This document shows positions 44,948 through 51,754 of a stretch of DNA of 64,000 nt, piece by piece; the first letter of the stretch is position 1, and each line of letters begins with the position of its first letter. The DNA comes from Caulobacter sp. SL161 (GTDB taxonomy: Bacteria > Pseudomonadota > Alphaproteobacteria > Caulobacterales > Caulobacteraceae), in contig NZ_JAPPRA010000001.1 of NCBI RefSeq assembly GCF_026672375.1, positions 3,224,001 to 3,288,000 on the forward strand, in the 5' to 3' direction. The notes beneath the pieces were generated by a model, which was not told the origin of the DNA, did not search any database, and saw only the letters and a program-made list of their open reading frames with translations. The translations under genes were made by a program, and so were the position numbers.

Positions 44948-45328
44948 TTACGCCGTTACAACCCGCCCTTCCCGCGCCTCAACAGGCCAAGGCTTGAGCC
45001 GCGCGCCGGCGCACGGACCGCCAACGCAGGCGCCGTCCTCGACCTTGAACACCGCCCCGTGCCAGGAGCACAGGATCAGATCGCCGTCGGGCGTCAGGTA
45101 GCGGTCCAGTTCCTGGGCCAGCGGCAGGCCGGCGTGGGGGCAGCGGTCGACATAGCCGAACACCGCCTCGCCCCGGCGCACGATGAAGCCGTGGAAACGC
45201 GCCTCGCCGATCTGCAGCACATAGTTGCGCGCGCCGCCGTCGGTGATCAGGTCTAGCGGGCCAAGATTGATTCCGGCCCGGGTCTCCCAGATCCGCCCAG
45301 CTGCGGCGGGCGCAGTCTCGTCCGTCAA
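44948..45328 (-). CDS. Rieske [2Fe-2S] domain protein
   Basis: 126 residues. The Rieske ligands are in RCPHAGLPL (Cys-x-His) and LCSWHGAVF (Cys-x-x-His). There is no oxygenase catalytic domain, so it is a ferredoxin-like electron carrier or subunit. The start is most likely TTG 45328, which overlaps the fahA stop as TTGA, indicating translational coupling. Its place in the tyrosine-degradation operon is unusual, and its partner is unknown. Confidence 0.85.
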   Translation of the reverse strand: MTDETAPAAAGRIWETRAGINLGPLDLITDGGARNYVLQIGEARFHGFIVRRGEAVFGYVDRCPHAGLPLAQELDRYLTPDGDLILCSWHGAVFKVEDGACVGGPCAGARLKPWPVEAREGRVVTA

Positions 45329-46332
45329 ATCCGTTCGACCGTCTGCTCGATGGCGCCGAAGATCGAGTGGCCCTTGGCGTCCTTCATCTCGATGCGGATG
45401 GTGTCGCCGCCCAGCAGGAACGGCGTCTTGGGCGCGCCGTGCAGGAGGGTCTCGACGGTGCGGACCTCGGCCAGGCACGAATAGCCAAGACCGCCTTCGC
45501 TGATCGGCTTGCCGGGGCCGCCGTCGGCGTCGCGGTTGCTGACCGTGCCCGAGCCGACGATGGTGCCGGCGCAGAGGCTGCGGGTCTTGGCGGCGTGAGC
45601 CACCAGCGTGCCGAAGTCGAAGGTCATGTCGACACCGGCGTCGGCGCGGCCGAAGTCCTTGCCGTCCAGTTCGACCAGCAGGGCCCCATGCAGCTTGCCG
45701 TCCTTCCAGGCGTCACCCAGGGCGTCGGGCGACACCGCCACCGGCGAAAACGCGCTGGCGGGCTTTGACTGCAGGAAGCCGAAACCCTTGGCCAGCTCGC
45801 CCGGGATCAGGTTGCGCAGCGAGACATCATTGCAGAGCATGACCAGGCGAATGGCCGCCAGCGCCTCCTCGCGGGTCGCGCCCAGCGGCACGTCATCGAC
45901 GATGACCGCCACCTCGCCCTCCAGATCACAGCCCCAGCTCGCGTCGGCCAGCGGGATCGGATCACGCGGGGCCAGGAAGCCGTCGGACGCGCCCTGGTAC
46001 ATCAGAGGATCGGTCCAGAAGCTCTCGGGCATCTCGGCGCCGCGCGCTTTGCGCACCAATTGGACATGGTTCACATAGGCCGAGCCGTCGACCCACTGAT
46101 AGGCGCGCGGCAGCGGGCTGAGCGCGTCGTGCTCGTGGAAGCGCTCCTTAGGCACCGCGCCGTGCTCGAGGCTCTCGGCCAGGCCCGCCAGCATGGGCCC
46201 GCAGTGCTCCCAGTTGTCGAGCGCGGCCTGCAGGGTCGGCGCGATCGTCCCGGCGTCGGTGAACCAGGCCAGGTCGTTGGAGACCACCACCAGACGGCCG
46301 TCGCGACCACCCTTGAGAGACGCGAGCTTCAT
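45325..46332 (-). CDS. fahA: Fumarylacetoacetate hydrolase
   Basis: 335 residues with the FAH-family catalytic core: LADASWGCDLEGEVAVIVDDVPLG (metal-binding Glu pair), LVMLCNDVSLRNL and the C-terminal CAGTIVGSGTVSNRD. This is the prokaryotic-type enzyme used in tyrosine and homogentisate pathways, cleaving fumarylacetoacetate to fumarate and acetoacetate. It follows hmgA by about 115 bases on the same strand. A GGAGGAAAA sequence precedes ATG 46332. Confidence 0.92.
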   Translation of the reverse strand: MKLASLKGGRDGRLVVVSNDLAWFTDAGTIAPTLQAALDNWEHCGPMLAGLAESLEHGAVPKERFHEHDALSPLPRAYQWVDGSAYVNHVQLVRKARGAEMPESFWTDPLMYQGASDGFLAPRDPIPLADASWGCDLEGEVAVIVDDVPLGATREEALAAIRLVMLCNDVSLRNLIPGELAKGFGFLQSKPASAFSPVAVSPDALGDAWKDGKLHGALLVELDGKDFGRADAGVDMTFDFGTLVAHAAKTRSLCAGTIVGSGTVSNRDADGGPGKPISEGGLGYSCLAEVRTVETLLHGAPKTPFLLGGDTIRIEMKDAKGHSIFGAIEQTVERI

Positions 46333-46447: not shown

Positions 46448-47725
46448 TCAGGACAGGCGAGCCTTGGGGAAGCCGGTCCAGCAGGCGTCGTAGTCGGGCT
46501 GCAGCGCTGCGGACTCCAGGGCCAGGGCCGTCGGGCGGAACACCCAGCGGCTCTCGAACATGAAGGCCATGGTCCCGTCGATCTTGTGCGGGGCCAGGAC
46601 CGCTTCGGTCGCCTTCTTGTGGCTGGCGACGTCGGGGCCGTGGTCGCTCATGCAGTTGTGCAAGGACGCGCCGCCGGGGACGAAGCCGCCCTCCTTGGCG
46701 TCATAGGCGCCATGGATCAGGCCCATGAACTCGCTCATCACGTTGCGGTGGAACCACGGCGGGCGGAACGTGTCCTCGGCCACCATCCAGCGCGGCGGGA
46801 AGATCACGAAGTCGCAGTTGGCCGTCCCGGGCGTGTCGCTGGGCGAGGTCAGGACCGTGAAGATCGACGGGTCGGGATGGTCGTAGCTGACCGTGTTGAT
46901 CGTGTTGAACCGCGACAGGTCATAGCGGTACGGCGTCAGATTGCCGTGCCAGGCCACCACGTCCAGCGGGCTGTGATCCAAGGTCGCGGCCCACAGCGCG
47001 CCTTGGAACTTCTGGATCACTTGCGTGGGCGCATCGATATCCTCGAAGGCCGCCACCGGGGCTTCAAAGTCGCGCGGATTGGCCAGGCCGTTGGCGCCGA
47101 TCGGCCCCAGTTCCGGCAGGCGGAAGGCCGCGCCATAGTTCTCGCAGACATAGCCGCGCGAGGGCCCTTCGACCTCGACCCGGAAGCGCACGCCGCGCGG
47201 GATCACCGCGATGTGGCCGGGGCCCACCTTCAGCACGCCCATCTCGGTGACCAGGGTCAGCACGCCCATCTGCGGCACGATCAGCATCTCGCCGTCGGCG
47301 TTGTAGAACACCCGGTTCTGCATCGAGACATTGGCCAGATAGACGTGCGCGGCGATGCCCCCCAGCGTCGCGGCGTCGGCGTTGCCGGCCAGACTCACCA
47401 GGCCATCGACGAAGTCGGTCGGCGCAGCCGGGATCTCCAGCGGGCTCCAGCGCAGGCGGTTGGGCGTGGCAGGACCCGGAAAGGCCGAGACGAGGCTAGC
47501 TTGCGCATAGGGCTGATAGGCCCCGTGTCCGGCGCTGGGCCGGAGGCGATAGAGCCAGGTGCGGCGGTTCTCATGGCGCGGCGCGGTGAAGGCCGAGCCC
47601 GACAGCTGCTCGGCATAGAGGCCGAACGGAACCTTCTGCGGCGAGTTGCGCCCGATCGGCAGAGCGCCGGGATGCGCCTCGGTTTCGAAATAGGAGCCGA
47701 AGCCGGTTTGGTAGCGGAGGTCCAT
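46448..47725 (-). CDS. hmgA: Homogentisate 1,2-dioxygenase
   Basis: 425 residues, normal length. It starts [23 protein letters not shown] and has the Fe(II)-ligand region [20 protein letters not shown] and [12 protein letters not shown]. It opens the homogentisate ring to maleylacetoacetate. It lies downstream of hppD in the tyrosine-catabolism cluster, separated by a dispersed repeat. No maleylacetoacetate isomerase gene lies beside it. Confidence 0.97.
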
Positions 47726-47894: not shown

Positions 47895-48968
47895 TCAGGC
47901 GTCGACGGTGATCACGCCGCGGCGGATCTGGTCCAGTTCGATGCTCTCGAACAGGGCCTGGAAGTTGCCGTTGCCGAAGCCTTCGTTGCCCTTGCGCTGG
48001 ATGATCTCGAAGAAGATCGGGCCGAACAGGTTCTCGGTGAAGATCTGCAGCAGAAGGCCCTCCTCACCGACATTGCCGTCGATCAGGATGCGATTCTTCT
48101 TCAGACGCTCCAGGTCCTCGCCGTGGCCGGGGACGCGCTTGTCGACCAGCTCGTAATAGGTCTCGATGGTGTCCTGCAGCTTCACGCCGCGGGCGCGCAG
48201 CTTTTCGACGGTCTCGTAGATATTGTCCGTCGTCATGGCCAGGTGCTGGATGCCCTCGCCGTTGTACTGGCGGATGAACTCCTCGATCTGGCTCTTGTCG
48301 TCCTGGCTTTCGTTCAGCGGGATGCGGATGGCCTTGTCGGGCGCGATCATCGCCTGGCTGAACAGGCCGGTCGCCTGGCCCTTGATGTCGAAGTACTTCT
48401 GCTCCTCGAAGCCGAAGATCTGGTTGTAGAAGGTCGACCAGGTGCGCATCTGGCCACGCTTGACGTTGTGGGTCAGGTGGTCGAGCAGATCGAGGCCGAC
48501 ATTGTTCTTGGCTTCCGCCAGGGCCGCGCCCGGAACCTGCTCCCAGGCGTCATAGATCGTGCCGGCGTCGCCATAGCGGTCGACGAGATAGAGCAAGGAC
48601 CCGCCGATCCCTTCCAGCACCTTGGCCTCCGCGCCTAGCAGCGAGCGCGAGGCGTCGGCGGCCTTGGCGCCGCGCTTGATCGCGTCCGCATAGGCTTGCT
48701 CAGCGTTCTCGACACGGAAGGCCATGCCGTTGGCCGACGGGCCGTGGTCGGCGCGGAAGTCGGCGACCTGACCGGTGGTCTCTTCATTGACGATCAGGTT
48801 CACGCGGCCCTGCTTGTAGCGGGTCGCGGCCTTGGTCGGATGCTTGCTGGCGGCGACGAAGCCCAGTTGCTCGATCAGGGCCTTCATGGCCGCCGGATCG
48901 GGGCTGGTGAACTCGACGAACTCGAAGCCGTCGAGGCCCAGGGGGTTCTGGTCGGTGACGAGAGTCAT
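47895..48968 (-). CDS. hppD: 4-hydroxyphenylpyruvate dioxygenase
   Basis: 357 residues, a two-domain VOC-fold dioxygenase. It starts MTLVTDQNPLGLDGFEFVEF; the C-terminal catalytic half has LDLLDHLTHNV (first His), NGEGIQHLAMTTDNI (second His) and the Glu ligand in PIFFEIIQRKGNEGFGNGNF. It converts 4-hydroxyphenylpyruvate to homogentisate. It starts 18 bases downstream of the aminotransferase gene. Confidence 0.97.
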   Translation of the reverse strand: MTLVTDQNPLGLDGFEFVEFTSPDPAAMKALIEQLGFVAASKHPTKAATRYKQGRVNLIVNEETTGQVADFRADHGPSANGMAFRVENAEQAYADAIKRGAKAADASRSLLGAEAKVLEGIGGSLLYLVDRYGDAGTIYDAWEQVPGAALAEAKNNVGLDLLDHLTHNVKRGQMRTWSTFYNQIFGFEEQKYFDIKGQATGLFSQAMIAPDKAIRIPLNESQDDKSQIEEFIRQYNGEGIQHLAMTTDNIYETVEKLRARGVKLQDTIETYYELVDKRVPGHGEDLERLKKNRILIDGNVGEEGLLLQIFTENLFGPIFFEIIQRKGNEGFGNGNFQALFESIELDQIRRGVITVDA

Positions 48969-48986: not shown

Positions 48987-50108
48987 TTAGAGCGAAAGGG
49001 CCGCCGGCAGGGCGGCGATCAGGGCGTCGTTGTCGGCCGGGCGGCCGATGGTGATCCGGACCCAGCCGCCGGCGACGGGCGTCGGCCGGATGATGAGCCC
49101 TTGGTGCAACAAATGCGCGGCGGTGGCGTCCGGACCCGCCGGCGTCCGCAGGAACACGAAATTGGCGCGGCTTTCGGTGTGCTCGACGCCCATGTCGTCC
49201 AGCACCGCCTCCACCCGGCCGCGCTCGGCGATCGTCTGGGCGACCGTGCGCTTGAGGTAGTCCTGGTCTTCCCAGGCGGCCAGCGCGGCGGCCTGGCTGA
49301 CGGCCGTGACGTTGAAGGGCGGGCGGATGCGGTCCAGATAATCGACCAGCTCGGGCGAAGACGCGACGCCATAGCCCATGCGCAAACCGGCCAGGCCATA
49401 GGCCTTGGAGAAGGTGCGGGCCGACACCCACGGACCGCCCCAGGCGTCCAGCAGGGCGAAGGTGTCGAAGGCCTCGTGATACTCGCGATAGGCCTCGTCG
49501 ACGAACACGACGGTCGAGCGCGGGGTGGCCGCCAGGATCGCCTGGAAATCCGCCGCCTTCAGCGCGTTGCCCGTCGGATTGTTGGGCGTGCACAGCACCA
49601 GCAGCTTGGGGCCCTGGGCGGCGGCGGCGCACACGGCCGGAACGTCCATGTCGAAATTCGCCAGACGCGGCACGTCGATGATCCGCGCCTCGGCGCAGCG
49701 GCCGAAGATCTCGTAGGTCGGGAAGGTCGGGCTGGACAGCAGGATCGAGTCGCCCGGGTGCAGCACGGCCCGAAACACGTAGTCGATCAGCGCCTCCGAT
49801 CCTGGCGAGATGACCAGACGCGCCGGCGAAACGCCCAGGCGTTCACCGATCGCCGCGCGCAGCACGTCGCTGTGCGGATCGGGATAGATGTGCGGCTCGG
49901 CCATCGCGGCCATCACCGCCTCGGCGACCTTGGGGCTGGGGCCCAAAAGGTTCTCGTTGCTGGCCAGCTTGGAGAAGGCGGTCAGCCCCGTGCGGCGTCC
50001 GGCCTCGGCCAGGGTCATGCCGGCTTTGTAGCCTTGCACGCCCTCCAGCGCCTGGCGCATCGGCGAGGCCCAGGCGGGCGTCAGGGGCTTGCGATCGAGA
50101 ACCAGCAT
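48987..50108 (-). CDS. Histidinol-phosphate/aromatic aminotransferase (HisC-like)
   Basis: 373 residues, a fold-type I PLP enzyme. The PLP lysine is in TFSKAYGLAGLRMGYG, with CTPNNPTGNAL and FVDEAYREY upstream; the N-terminus has KLASNENLLGPSP. Sequence type fits the HisC family, but the location directly before hppD points to tyrosine or phenylalanine transamination to supply 4-hydroxyphenylpyruvate. ATG 50108 with GGAG upstream is preferred to TTG 50123. A 15-base motif shared with lrp lies 91-105 bases upstream. Confidence 0.9.
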   Translation of the reverse strand: MLVLDRKPLTPAWASPMRQALEGVQGYKAGMTLAEAGRRTGLTAFSKLASNENLLGPSPKVAEAVMAAMAEPHIYPDPHSDVLRAAIGERLGVSPARLVISPGSEALIDYVFRAVLHPGDSILLSSPTFPTYEIFGRCAEARIIDVPRLANFDMDVPAVCAAAAQGPKLLVLCTPNNPTGNALKAADFQAILAATPRSTVVFVDEAYREYHEAFDTFALLDAWGGPWVSARTFSKAYGLAGLRMGYGVASSPELVDYLDRIRPPFNVTAVSQAAALAAWEDQDYLKRTVAQTIAERGRVEAVLDDMGVEHTESRANFVFLRTPAGPDATAAHLLHQGLIIRPTPVAGGWVRITIGRPADNDALIAALPAALSL

Positions 50109-50198
50109 GCGGCCGCGCTCCAATGAGATGGGAGCGGCAGCTTATCGCGAAAGCTGAGACAGAACGTGGCGATTATGACCACGCGCAAGGCCACGACG

Positions 50199-50213
50199 GT
50201 CACGATATGCCAA
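50199..50213. promoter_or_regulatory. Putative Lrp operator upstream of the aminotransferase
   Basis: GTCACGATATGCCAA is exactly repeated, in inverted orientation, upstream of the Lrp regulator gene (50736-50750). Both target genes run on the minus strand. Confidence 0.65.
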
Positions 50214-50242
50214 TGATCTGGATCAATTAGCGCAGTAAGTGA

Positions 50243-50713
50243 TCAGGCGACATAATCAAGCGGCAGCGCCGTCTGATCCTTGATGGTGTCGAGCACGAAT
50301 GAGGACCGCACGTCCTTGACGGCCGGCATCTTCAGCAGGCGCTTCATCGTGAAGTCGGCATAGGCGTCGAGGCTGGGCACCACCACCCGCAGCAGATAGT
50401 CGTAGCCGCCCGTCATGGCGTAGCAACCGACGACCTCCGGCTCGCGCAGAACCGCCTGCTGGAAGGCCTCGGCCGCCTCCTCGCTGTGGCGGTCGACCTG
50501 CACCTCCACATAGGCCAGCACGTCCAGCTTGGCCTTGCGGCGATCCAGCAACGCCACATAGCCACGGATCAAGCCCGAGGCCTCCAACTGCTTCACCCGC
50601 CGCAGACAGGGGCTCGGCGACAGCCCCACCCGCTCGGCGAGATCCACATTGGAGATCTTGCCGTCCTCCTGGAGGATCTGAAGAATCTTCCGATCGGCGC
50701 GCATCAGCTTCAT
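50243..50713 (-). CDS. Lrp/AsnC family transcriptional regulator
   Basis: 156 residues. The N-terminal winged helix (MRADRKILQILQEDGKISNV, then DLAERVGLSPSPCLRRVKQLEASG) and the C-terminal RAM ligand-binding domain (VGCYAMTGGYDYLLRVVVPSL) are standard. It sits at the head of the tyrosine-catabolism gene cluster and shares an exact 15-bp motif with the aminotransferase upstream region. It likely controls these genes and itself in response to an aromatic amino acid. ATG 50713 is the family-typical start. Confidence 0.92.
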   Translation of the reverse strand: MKLMRADRKILQILQEDGKISNVDLAERVGLSPSPCLRRVKQLEASGLIRGYVALLDRRKAKLDVLAYVEVQVDRHSEEAAEAFQQAVLREPEVVGCYAMTGGYDYLLRVVVPSLDAYADFTMKRLLKMPAVKDVRSSFVLDTIKDQTALPLDYVA

Positions 50714-50735
50714 CGTGACCGGTTTCCGCGTGAAG

Positions 50736-50750
50736 TTGGCATATCGTGAC
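50736..50750. promoter_or_regulatory. Putative Lrp operator upstream of lrp
   Basis: TTGGCATATCGTGAC is the exact complement of the motif before the aminotransferase gene. ATCGTGAC is also repeated at 50712-50719, across the lrp start. The distance to lrp is 23-37 bases. Confidence 0.65.
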
Positions 50751-50848
50751 AGGCTAGCCGATTTTGAGCCTGTGTGGGAGACGCCGCTTGCGCGCGGCCG
50801 CGCTTCCCGCTCTACCATCCGGAACAAATCTAGCGCGAGGACCCCCGC

Positions 50849-51754
50849 ATGCCCGAGAGCCCATTCGCCATCCCTTCCGGCAACAAGCCCCCGTTCAAAT
50901 CGCCCTTCCAGAGCAAGGGCAAGCAAGCGGTCGCCATCAGCGTCGGCGTCGTGCTGCTGCTGCTGAGCTCCTGCGTCGTCGTCACCCAGAGCTCGACGGT
51001 CGAGCCGGGCAATGTCGGCGTGAAGATCCGCACCCTGGGCGCGTCGGCTGGTGTCGATCCCGAACCCCTGCCCGCCCGCTGGTACCTGCGCGGCATCGGC
51101 GAGCGGATCATCCAGTATCCGGTGATCCAGCGCACCTACGGCTATACCCGCGAAGCCGATGAGCGCGGCAACGAGAACGAAGAGATCACCTTCTCGGACA
51201 ACACCGGCCTGCCGATGACGGCCGACATCTCGGTGACGCTGCAGGTCAATCCGGCCTCGGCCCCGAGCTTGTACCAGACCTATCGCCTGTCGTTCGACCA
51301 GCTGCTGGACGGCCCGATCCGCAATGACGTCCGCTCGGCCGTCGCCGCCGAGGCCGAGAAGGTCGGGGTCGAGACGCTCTACAGCGGCGGCCGTCAGATG
51401 GTGATCCAGAAGGCCTACGCTCGCGTCTCCAGCAAGTGGGCCCGTCACGGCGTCAATATCAGCCAGCTCGACTGGATCGGCTCGATCCGCTACCCGCAGG
51501 CGATCATCCAGCAGATGCAGGCCAAGACCCAGCTGGAGCAGGAAGCCCTGGCGGCCAAGGCGCTCGAAGCCAAGGAAACTGCCCTGGCCAACGCCGCCGT
51601 CGCCAAGGCGCGCGGTGAGGCTGAGGCCATCCGAATCAAGGGCGAGGCTCTGCGCGCCAATCCGCAGGTCCTGCAACAGCTGGCCATCGAAAAGTGGAAC
51701 GGCGAGATGCCCAAGGTGACCAGCGGCGGCACGCCGTTCGTCAAGATCGACTAA
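50849..51754 (+). CDS. SPFH/band 7 domain membrane protein
   Basis: 301 residues. A hydrophilic N-terminus is followed by one hydrophobic helix (about 29-43, AVAISVGVVLLLLSSCVVV) and then an SPFH domain (about 55-210, VEPGNVGVKIRTLG, NTGLPMTADISVTLQVNP). A coiled coil (about 215-270, QEALAAKALEAKETALANAA) closes the protein. Prohibitin/stomatin-like members form large membrane rings that organise proteases or lipid domains. It is divergent from lrp. Confidence 0.85.
   Translation: MPESPFAIPSGNKPPFKSPFQSKGKQAVAISVGVVLLLLSSCVVVTQSSTVEPGNVGVKIRTLGASAGVDPEPLPARWYLRGIGERIIQYPVIQRTYGYTREADERGNENEEITFSDNTGLPMTADISVTLQVNPASAPSLYQTYRLSFDQLLDGPIRNDVRSAVAAEAEKVGVETLYSGGRQMVIQKAYARVSSKWARHGVNISQLDWIGSIRYPQAIIQQMQAKTQLEQEALAAKALEAKETALANAAVAKARGEAEAIRIKGEALRANPQVLQQLAIEKWNGEMPKVTSGGTPFVKID

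Follow-up and report, generated by a model that had tools for sequence, protein, structure and literature searches.

A candidate paired operator for an Lrp-type regulator at the tyrosine catabolic operon of a Caulobacter

Described regulators and the Caulobacter locus

HpdR of Sinorhizobium meliloti, reportedly the subject of Loprasert et al. 2007 (J Bacteriol 189:3660), and HpdA of Streptomyces, which is Lrp/AsnC-like, represent a known kind of circuit. According to the portion of PMC7014725 drawn on here, the AsnC-family HpdR of S. meliloti activates the gene of 4-hydroxyphenylpyruvate dioxygenase (HPPD) with 4-hydroxyphenylpyruvate and tyrosine. For Streptomyces coelicolor, the title of Yang et al. 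(2007, Mol Microbiol 65:1064) couples activation of the HPPD gene by HpdA to negative autoregulation, which, going by that title, is the circuit that we propose here for a Caulobacter; S. coelicolor differs in that a second regulator, HpdR, also represses there, again by title. HpdA of Cupriavidus necator H16 appears in the relevant part of PMC7057948 as a tyrosine-inducible system with a 38.3-fold dynamic range, and we liken it to the Caulobacter protein by that description only. Elsewhere in the Proteobacteria the same pathway is served by proteins of other families, those named in the section of PMC5343134 used here being TyrR/PhhR, HmgR (IclR), HmgQ (LysR) and HmgS (MarR). The kind of circuit is known, then, and what is new is its description for a Caulobacter: in the open literature, with subscription papers and RegPrecise outside the search, we recognised no account of this Lrp or its operator in Caulobacter.

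The window is the whole stretch of 64,000 nucleotides that was analysed. On its minus strand, the gene of an Lrp/AsnC-family regulator (lrp, 50243..50713) is followed by those of a HisC-like aminotransferase (48987..50108), the first gene of the operon, of HPPD (47895..48968), of homogentisate 1,2-dioxygenase (HGD, 46448..47725) and of a fumarylacetoacetate hydrolase-like protein (FAH, 45325..46332), a set of genes for the homogentisate route of tyrosine breakdown. The four enzymes score over the cut-offs of TIGR01141, TIGR01263, TIGR01015, and Pfam FAA_hydrolase and FAA_hydro_N_2, respectively. This tandem order, lrp - aminotransferase - HPPD - HGD - FAH, sets the locus apart from S. meliloti HpdR, to which it is likened by description only. 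As with regulators of the HpdR/HpdA kind, the lrp gene is linked to HPPD and other genes of Phe/Tyr catabolism. The genome holds a second, better hisC match at G000:C1:2967046-2968098, and the HisC-like enzyme of the operon is probably a tyrosine aminotransferase. The analysis suggests this function for an enzyme that the models name histidinol-phosphate aminotransferase. Divergent from lrp lies an SPFH/Band 7 gene (50849-51754, PF01145) that received no name from the NCBIfam search.

The 156-residue Lrp is the putative binder of the sites described below. It scores over the gathering thresholds of Pfam AsnC_trans_reg (PF01037), HTH_24 (PF13412) and HTH_AsnC-type (PF13404), which places it in the Lrp/AsnC family, and falls short of Lrp proper (leucine-responsive, NF008370), with 138.1 bits against an NCBIfam cut-off of 233. 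It is 99% identical to the Lrp of C. vibrioides DSM 9893. Its sequence matches in the structure set include E. coli Lrp (PDB 2gqq, E 1.3e-35) and PDB 2p5v (E 2.6e-40), which we take to be the LRP/AsnC protein of Neisseria; by sequence, both share its family and fold. E. coli Lrp is a global regulator, whereas two target promoters were found for the Caulobacter protein. The genome contains 7 matches to this Lrp at E <= 0.001, and for one of these Lrp-type matches we can now offer a concrete predicted operator, a target operon and likely effectors.

The repeated word and the predicted operator

The 15-mer GTCACGATATGCCAA lies at 50199-50213 on the plus strand, and its second copy, at 50736-50750, is where the earlier note had placed it, though that copy is the reverse complement and not, as worded there, the exact complement. 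The first copy falls within the intergenic stretch 50109-50242, which separates the lrp stop from the aminotransferase ATG at 50108, and the second within 50714-50848, the gap from the lrp ATG at 50713 to the SPFH gene. The further ATCGTGAC reported at the lrp start is also present, at 50712-50719. Is such a repeat unlikely by chance, as had been argued? Repeated 15-mers are not rare within 64 kb: the window contains 192 pairs where a third-order Markov model predicts 61.5, and 30 pairs lie less than 1 kb apart against 7.3 expected, many of them self-overlapping palindromes. The word alone is therefore weak evidence. The part of the argument that holds is the unlikely placing of the copies in two neighbouring promoters; a 12-mer common to both intergenic stretches (131 + 134 nt) arose in 6 of 2000 mononucleotide shuffles. 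Throughout the genome (4,015,769 bases, 2 contigs) the exact 15-mer occurs only at these two promoters, so that it is not scattered at random through coding DNA. A mismatch scan of the genome finds 4 places with at most 2 mismatches and 31 with at most 3, against 16 at this last level for a reversed control pattern, and both 2-mismatch places (L003 and L004) are inside long ORFs.

From comparison of the sequences, the word appears to belong to a pseudo-palindrome of 15 bp, GGTCA-N5-TGACC, in which TGGCA can be an alternative half-site, and the sites fit the form KGKCA-N5-TGMCM. In a group of six genomes (L044-L049) the operon site reads GGTCATAAARTGACC, and its half-sites are a perfect inverted repeat. 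At lrp, the predicted operator O1, TGTCACGATATGCCA (50737..50751, minus strand), is located at -38 from the ATG and contains the 50736-50750 word bar one base. A second element, O2, GGTCACGATGAAGCT (50706..50720, minus strand), has a GGTCA half-site 31 bp from O1 and overlaps the start codon; the extra ATCGTGAC is best read as this O2 of the lrp pair. Directly before O1 is a presumed -10, GCTAGCCT (50751..50758, minus strand), proposed from the sequence and from the Caulobacter RpoD consensus GCTANAWC, as given in the part of PMC8144410 used here; this -10 is absent before lrp in the six genomes L044-L049. At the operon, the predicted O1, TGGCATATCGTGACC (50198..50212, minus strand), overlaps the 50199-50213 word, and O2 is GGTCATAATCGCCAC (50166..50180, minus strand). 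This O2 ends just before a block (50140..50164, minus strand) made up of a presumed -35, TTCTGTC at 50158-50164, and a presumed -10, GCGATAAGC at 50140-50148, and O1 is 32 bp further upstream; the -35/-10-like block is conserved in relatives.

How might such sites work? We propose that Lrp binds the 15-bp pseudo-palindrome together with a second element, set off from it by about three helical turns. Acting from the pair upstream of the presumed -35, Lrp would activate the aminotransferase-HPPD-HGD-FAH operon, with the help of tyrosine, phenylalanine or 4-hydroxyphenylpyruvate, effectors that the pathway and the described cases suggest. Given an assumed start about 25 nt before the ATG, the operon sites centre near -40 and -72, positions that suit an activator. 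At lrp, where the presumed start point and the start codon both lie under the pair, bound Lrp would hold down its own level; because the GCTA-type -10 directly precedes O1, O1 covers the presumed lrp start, an arrangement that suits autorepression. That the repeated word belongs to an operator of the adjacent Lrp we consider very likely, and to the full model, a Lrp operator with an activated catabolic operon and autorepression, we assign a probability of about three in four. The fixed pair, at 31 or 32 bp, would offer a clean test case of one Lrp activating one promoter and repressing another.

One might instead suppose that the same regulator, at the same sites, represses the operon and is released by tyrosine or 4-hydroxyphenylpyruvate. 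Conservation of the sites is silent on sign, the transcription starts are presumed, and regulators of other Proteobacteria do repress the pathway, for example HmgR of Pseudomonas, an IclR-type repressor in the part of PMC3223726 drawn on here. The position of the sites upstream of the conserved -35/-10-like block speaks for activation, however, as does the AsnC-family HpdR, which PMC7014725, in the portion used, describes as an activator of the HPPD gene; we judge repression of the operon unlikely.

Conservation in Caulobacter and the search for further targets

Are the sites kept in relatives? The Lrp relatives compared came from 63 loci on named contigs and from a set of 149 genomes within the family, related species being counted as separate loci throughout. 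The earlier note had asked for conservation in close relatives, and the word is indeed kept, but as a consensus and not letter for letter. In Caulobacter, the distance from the lrp ATG back to the start of a 17-mer like TTGKCANNATCTGCCAA is 39 bp in 20 of 21 loci and 40 bp in the other. The compared sequences themselves show where the sites are, how they are spaced, that they are conserved, and that they are tied to this Lrp and to genes of Phe/Tyr breakdown.

A matrix was built from 21 of 25 lrp loci, with no operon site in it; it omitted L069, L077 and L085, which have no site by eye, and L084, which is from another genus. Scanned at a threshold of 14 bits over 26 loci (L061-L086, 191,575 bp), this lrp-only matrix matches the lrp sites and, in 17 of the 23 operon-promoter loci, another site some 100 bp ahead of the operon's first gene. 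Beyond lrp and operon sites it has no matches in the 26 loci, and a reversed control of the same 191,575 bp gives 0. In 16 of these 17 loci the operon and lrp sites face opposite ways relative to their own genes; in L062 they face the same way. O1 with at most one mismatch is found at 24 of 33 lrp promoters and at 25 of 29 operon promoters, where random pieces cut from these loci give 99 of 4000 and 234 of 4000, respectively; the pattern counted at lrp and operon, KGKCANNNNNTGMCM, was derived from the very sites on which it is counted, and the independent test is the lrp-only matrix scan. The partner element is similarly regular. Of 33 Caulobacter lrp promoters, 29 have GGTCA at 31 bp from O1, 1 has it at 32 bp and 3 lack it; at the operon the element is at 32 bp in 24 of 29 (GGTCA in 21, GGCCA in 2, GGTCG in 1). 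The count of 29 omits L067, L072, L083 and L084; L067, viewed apart, has a degenerate operon O1 with 3 mismatches, and GGTCA at 32 bp. Repeated sites thus stand, as conserved sequence, before both the HPPD operon and the regulator gene, as in the HpdR/HpdA kind of system.

A site is present at the presumed lrp start point in 30 of the 33 Caulobacter promoters, and L069, L077 and L085 have no O1 at lrp. Two of these, L069 and L085, have a perfect O1 at the operon despite having none at lrp, and autoregulation may therefore differ there. Could the lrp-side site serve the divergent SPFH gene, and not lrp? The site does lie between the two genes. Yet among the 18 Caulobacter loci with 4 kb upstream, the SPFH gene adjoins lrp in only 6 (L061, L062, L063, L067, L074, L079), whereas the site is at -38 or -39 from lrp in 16, L069 and L085 being the exceptions, and a role for the site at the SPFH gene is accordingly very improbable. 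The operon begins more than 1 kb after lrp in 10 loci, 5 of which (L068, L070, L073, L080, L081) keep an operon site of at least 14 bits; in the other five (L071, L075, L076, L077, L082) the site is a variant that departs from the consensus by 1-3 mismatches. Operon sites with 2-3 mismatches are those of L067, L071, L076, L077 and L082.

Could the repeat be due to chance, or to a recent duplication that serves no function? The 192 pairs show how common repeated 15-mers are in the window, but a fixed position in many species, with core letters that vary, contradicts either chance or a single duplication, and we find such an origin scarcely credible. Conservation is, on these comparisons, the strongest support that the 15-mer exceeds chance.

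In some Caulobacter the operon opens with a HisC-like gene and in others with an AspC/TyrB-like one, with the same conserved promoter block (L061-L086, L172, L180). An HPPD tree of 22 rows has 13 labelled HisC, 8 labelled AspC and 1 unlabelled that turned out to be AspC; the aminotransferase label changes 4 times on this tree, 2 of the changes being forced by well-supported branches. These sequences indicate that the aminotransferase has been exchanged under a kept promoter.

A wider regulon was considered and rejected, the pattern counts showing no enrichment over reversed controls. The pattern KGKCANNWNNTGMCM occurs at 17 distinct places genome-wide against 20 in the reversed control, and is not enriched; 15 of the 17 were examined, and 2 are those of the window, 12 are in coding ORFs under a strict composition filter, and one (L124) is coding only by a looser one. 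Over 61 Caulobacter genomes TTGGCANNNNNTGACC occurs at 46 places against 43 in the reversed control, and the 30 loci examined comprise 16 in which lrp or genes of the operon adjoin the site and 14 in which they do not, among them L182 on a short contig. Four 3-mismatch places of the 15-mer (L005, L015, L016, L020) are in DNA that is not plainly coding; by eye only, nearby ORFs resemble a transporter at L016 and an alcohol dehydrogenase at L005. The phhA gene of this genome is unlinked and has no site of at least 6 bits. With 15 of the 17 pattern places viewed, and at a sensitivity that could miss degenerate sites, the scans of this genome gave no convincing promoter beyond the two described, and from them the regulator looks local.

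The regulator and its relatives

Does the site travel with this Lrp? An lrp orthologue is present in 19 of 23 sampled Caulobacter genomes. In the four that lack it (G022, G047, G111, G146), the best matches within the 250 nt that precede the examined catabolic genes have 2-3 mismatches. The HPPD examined in G022, G047 and G111 is distant (62-64%), and G146 has a phhA-AspC-HPPD-HGD cluster, with an HPPD of 86-87% and another Lrp (39%) upstream. Matrix matches of 16.2 bits in G022 and 12.2 bits in G111 are about 4 and 3 kb from HPPD, respectively.

Beyond Caulobacter, Lrp is divergent from phhA in 18 of 37 loci (L087-L123), namely all 15 Thalassospira and the MAGs L097, L105 and L106. Among the same loci, HPPD is divergent and adjacent in L103 and further off in L114, and 17 of the 37 showed none of the genes sought. 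The Thalassospira group of the tree has 16 rows; upstream of lrp, 3 of these have a best match without mismatches, 10 one with 1 mismatch and 3 one with 2, matches at varying places in AT-richer DNA and uncontrolled; the clearest is in L096, with TGGCATTATATGACC at -40. Site pairs 31 bp apart accompany the HPPD-divergent Lrps of G061 (L175) and G336 (L237). The class supplied 29 further HPPD loci, of which 3 (L237, L242, L243) include an Lrp; clear sites were seen only in L237, and the intergenic regions of L242 and L243 have none. In a tree of 60 Lrps, the rows linked to phhA or HPPD fall in one 39-row clade (98/98), which includes some long branches of unsure place; the exceptions are L114 and the other Lrp of G146. 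Within this clade, L103, L248 and L249 lack a clear site; a site with 1 mismatch is found at -27 in L104 and L113, which lie outside the clade.

These comparisons bear on whether some other factor, for example another Lrp-type protein, binds the sites, with the adjacent Lrp only a target. Candidates are at hand in the 7 Lrp matches of the genome, and the outside Lrps L104 and L113 have related upstream sites, TGGCA-N5-TGCTA. Against this, good sites are missing before the catabolic genes of the four Caulobacter without the orthologue, and in L149, L153 and L167, where another Lrp is beside an AspC-HPPD operon; Lrps of the clade that adjoin phhA or HPPD repeatedly come with related sites; and the paralogue L245 has TAGCA-N5-TGCTC instead. 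Binding by another factor is, in our estimation, quite improbable.

The claim that Lrp regulates itself and controls tyrosine catabolism, which the earlier note had drawn from the word, is thereby supported by comparative evidence on predicted sites: because these are conserved at both promoters in Caulobacter, and because related Lrps elsewhere adjoin phhA or HPPD with similar sites. Control of tyrosine catabolism is further supported because the site stays with an operon that starts more than 1 kb from lrp and is missing before catabolic genes in the four sampled lrp-less Caulobacter. Tentatively, and with rather more doubt than confidence, we suggest that one Lrp clade, in Caulobacter, Thalassospira and other alphaproteobacteria, has kept a paired operator, strictly spaced at three turns, at promoters of Phe/Tyr catabolism, with O2 of the autoregulatory pair on its own start codon and with the sign set by the place of the pair relative to the promoter, the pair outliving both the exchange of HisC-like and AspC-like enzymes and the change from divergent to tandem order.

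Some further observations concern individual loci. In G019 the lrp orthologue is unlinked to HPPD, and a site-like TAGCATATTCTGCCC is found 58 bp before HPPD (L173 3831); TTAGCATATTCTGCCCC upstream of HPPD there is a weak lead, and action in trans is a possible explanation. An unrelated Lrp (38-39% identical over its full length; G146 L172, G123 L250) lies upstream of, or divergent from, phhA-AspC-HPPD-HGD or AspC-HPPD-HGD without the operator, and the Lrp beside the AspC-HPPD operon in L149, L153 and L167 is likewise without a good site. These five loci appear to represent a second Lrp group attached to the same tyrosine pathway. Finally, the paralogue L245 (G000:C1:3855500-3856800) and its relatives L104 and L113 share a position for their different palindromes, TAGCA-N5-TGCTC or TGGCA-N5-TGCTA, at -26/-27 from the respective starts; these palindromes are perhaps another autoregulatory operator.
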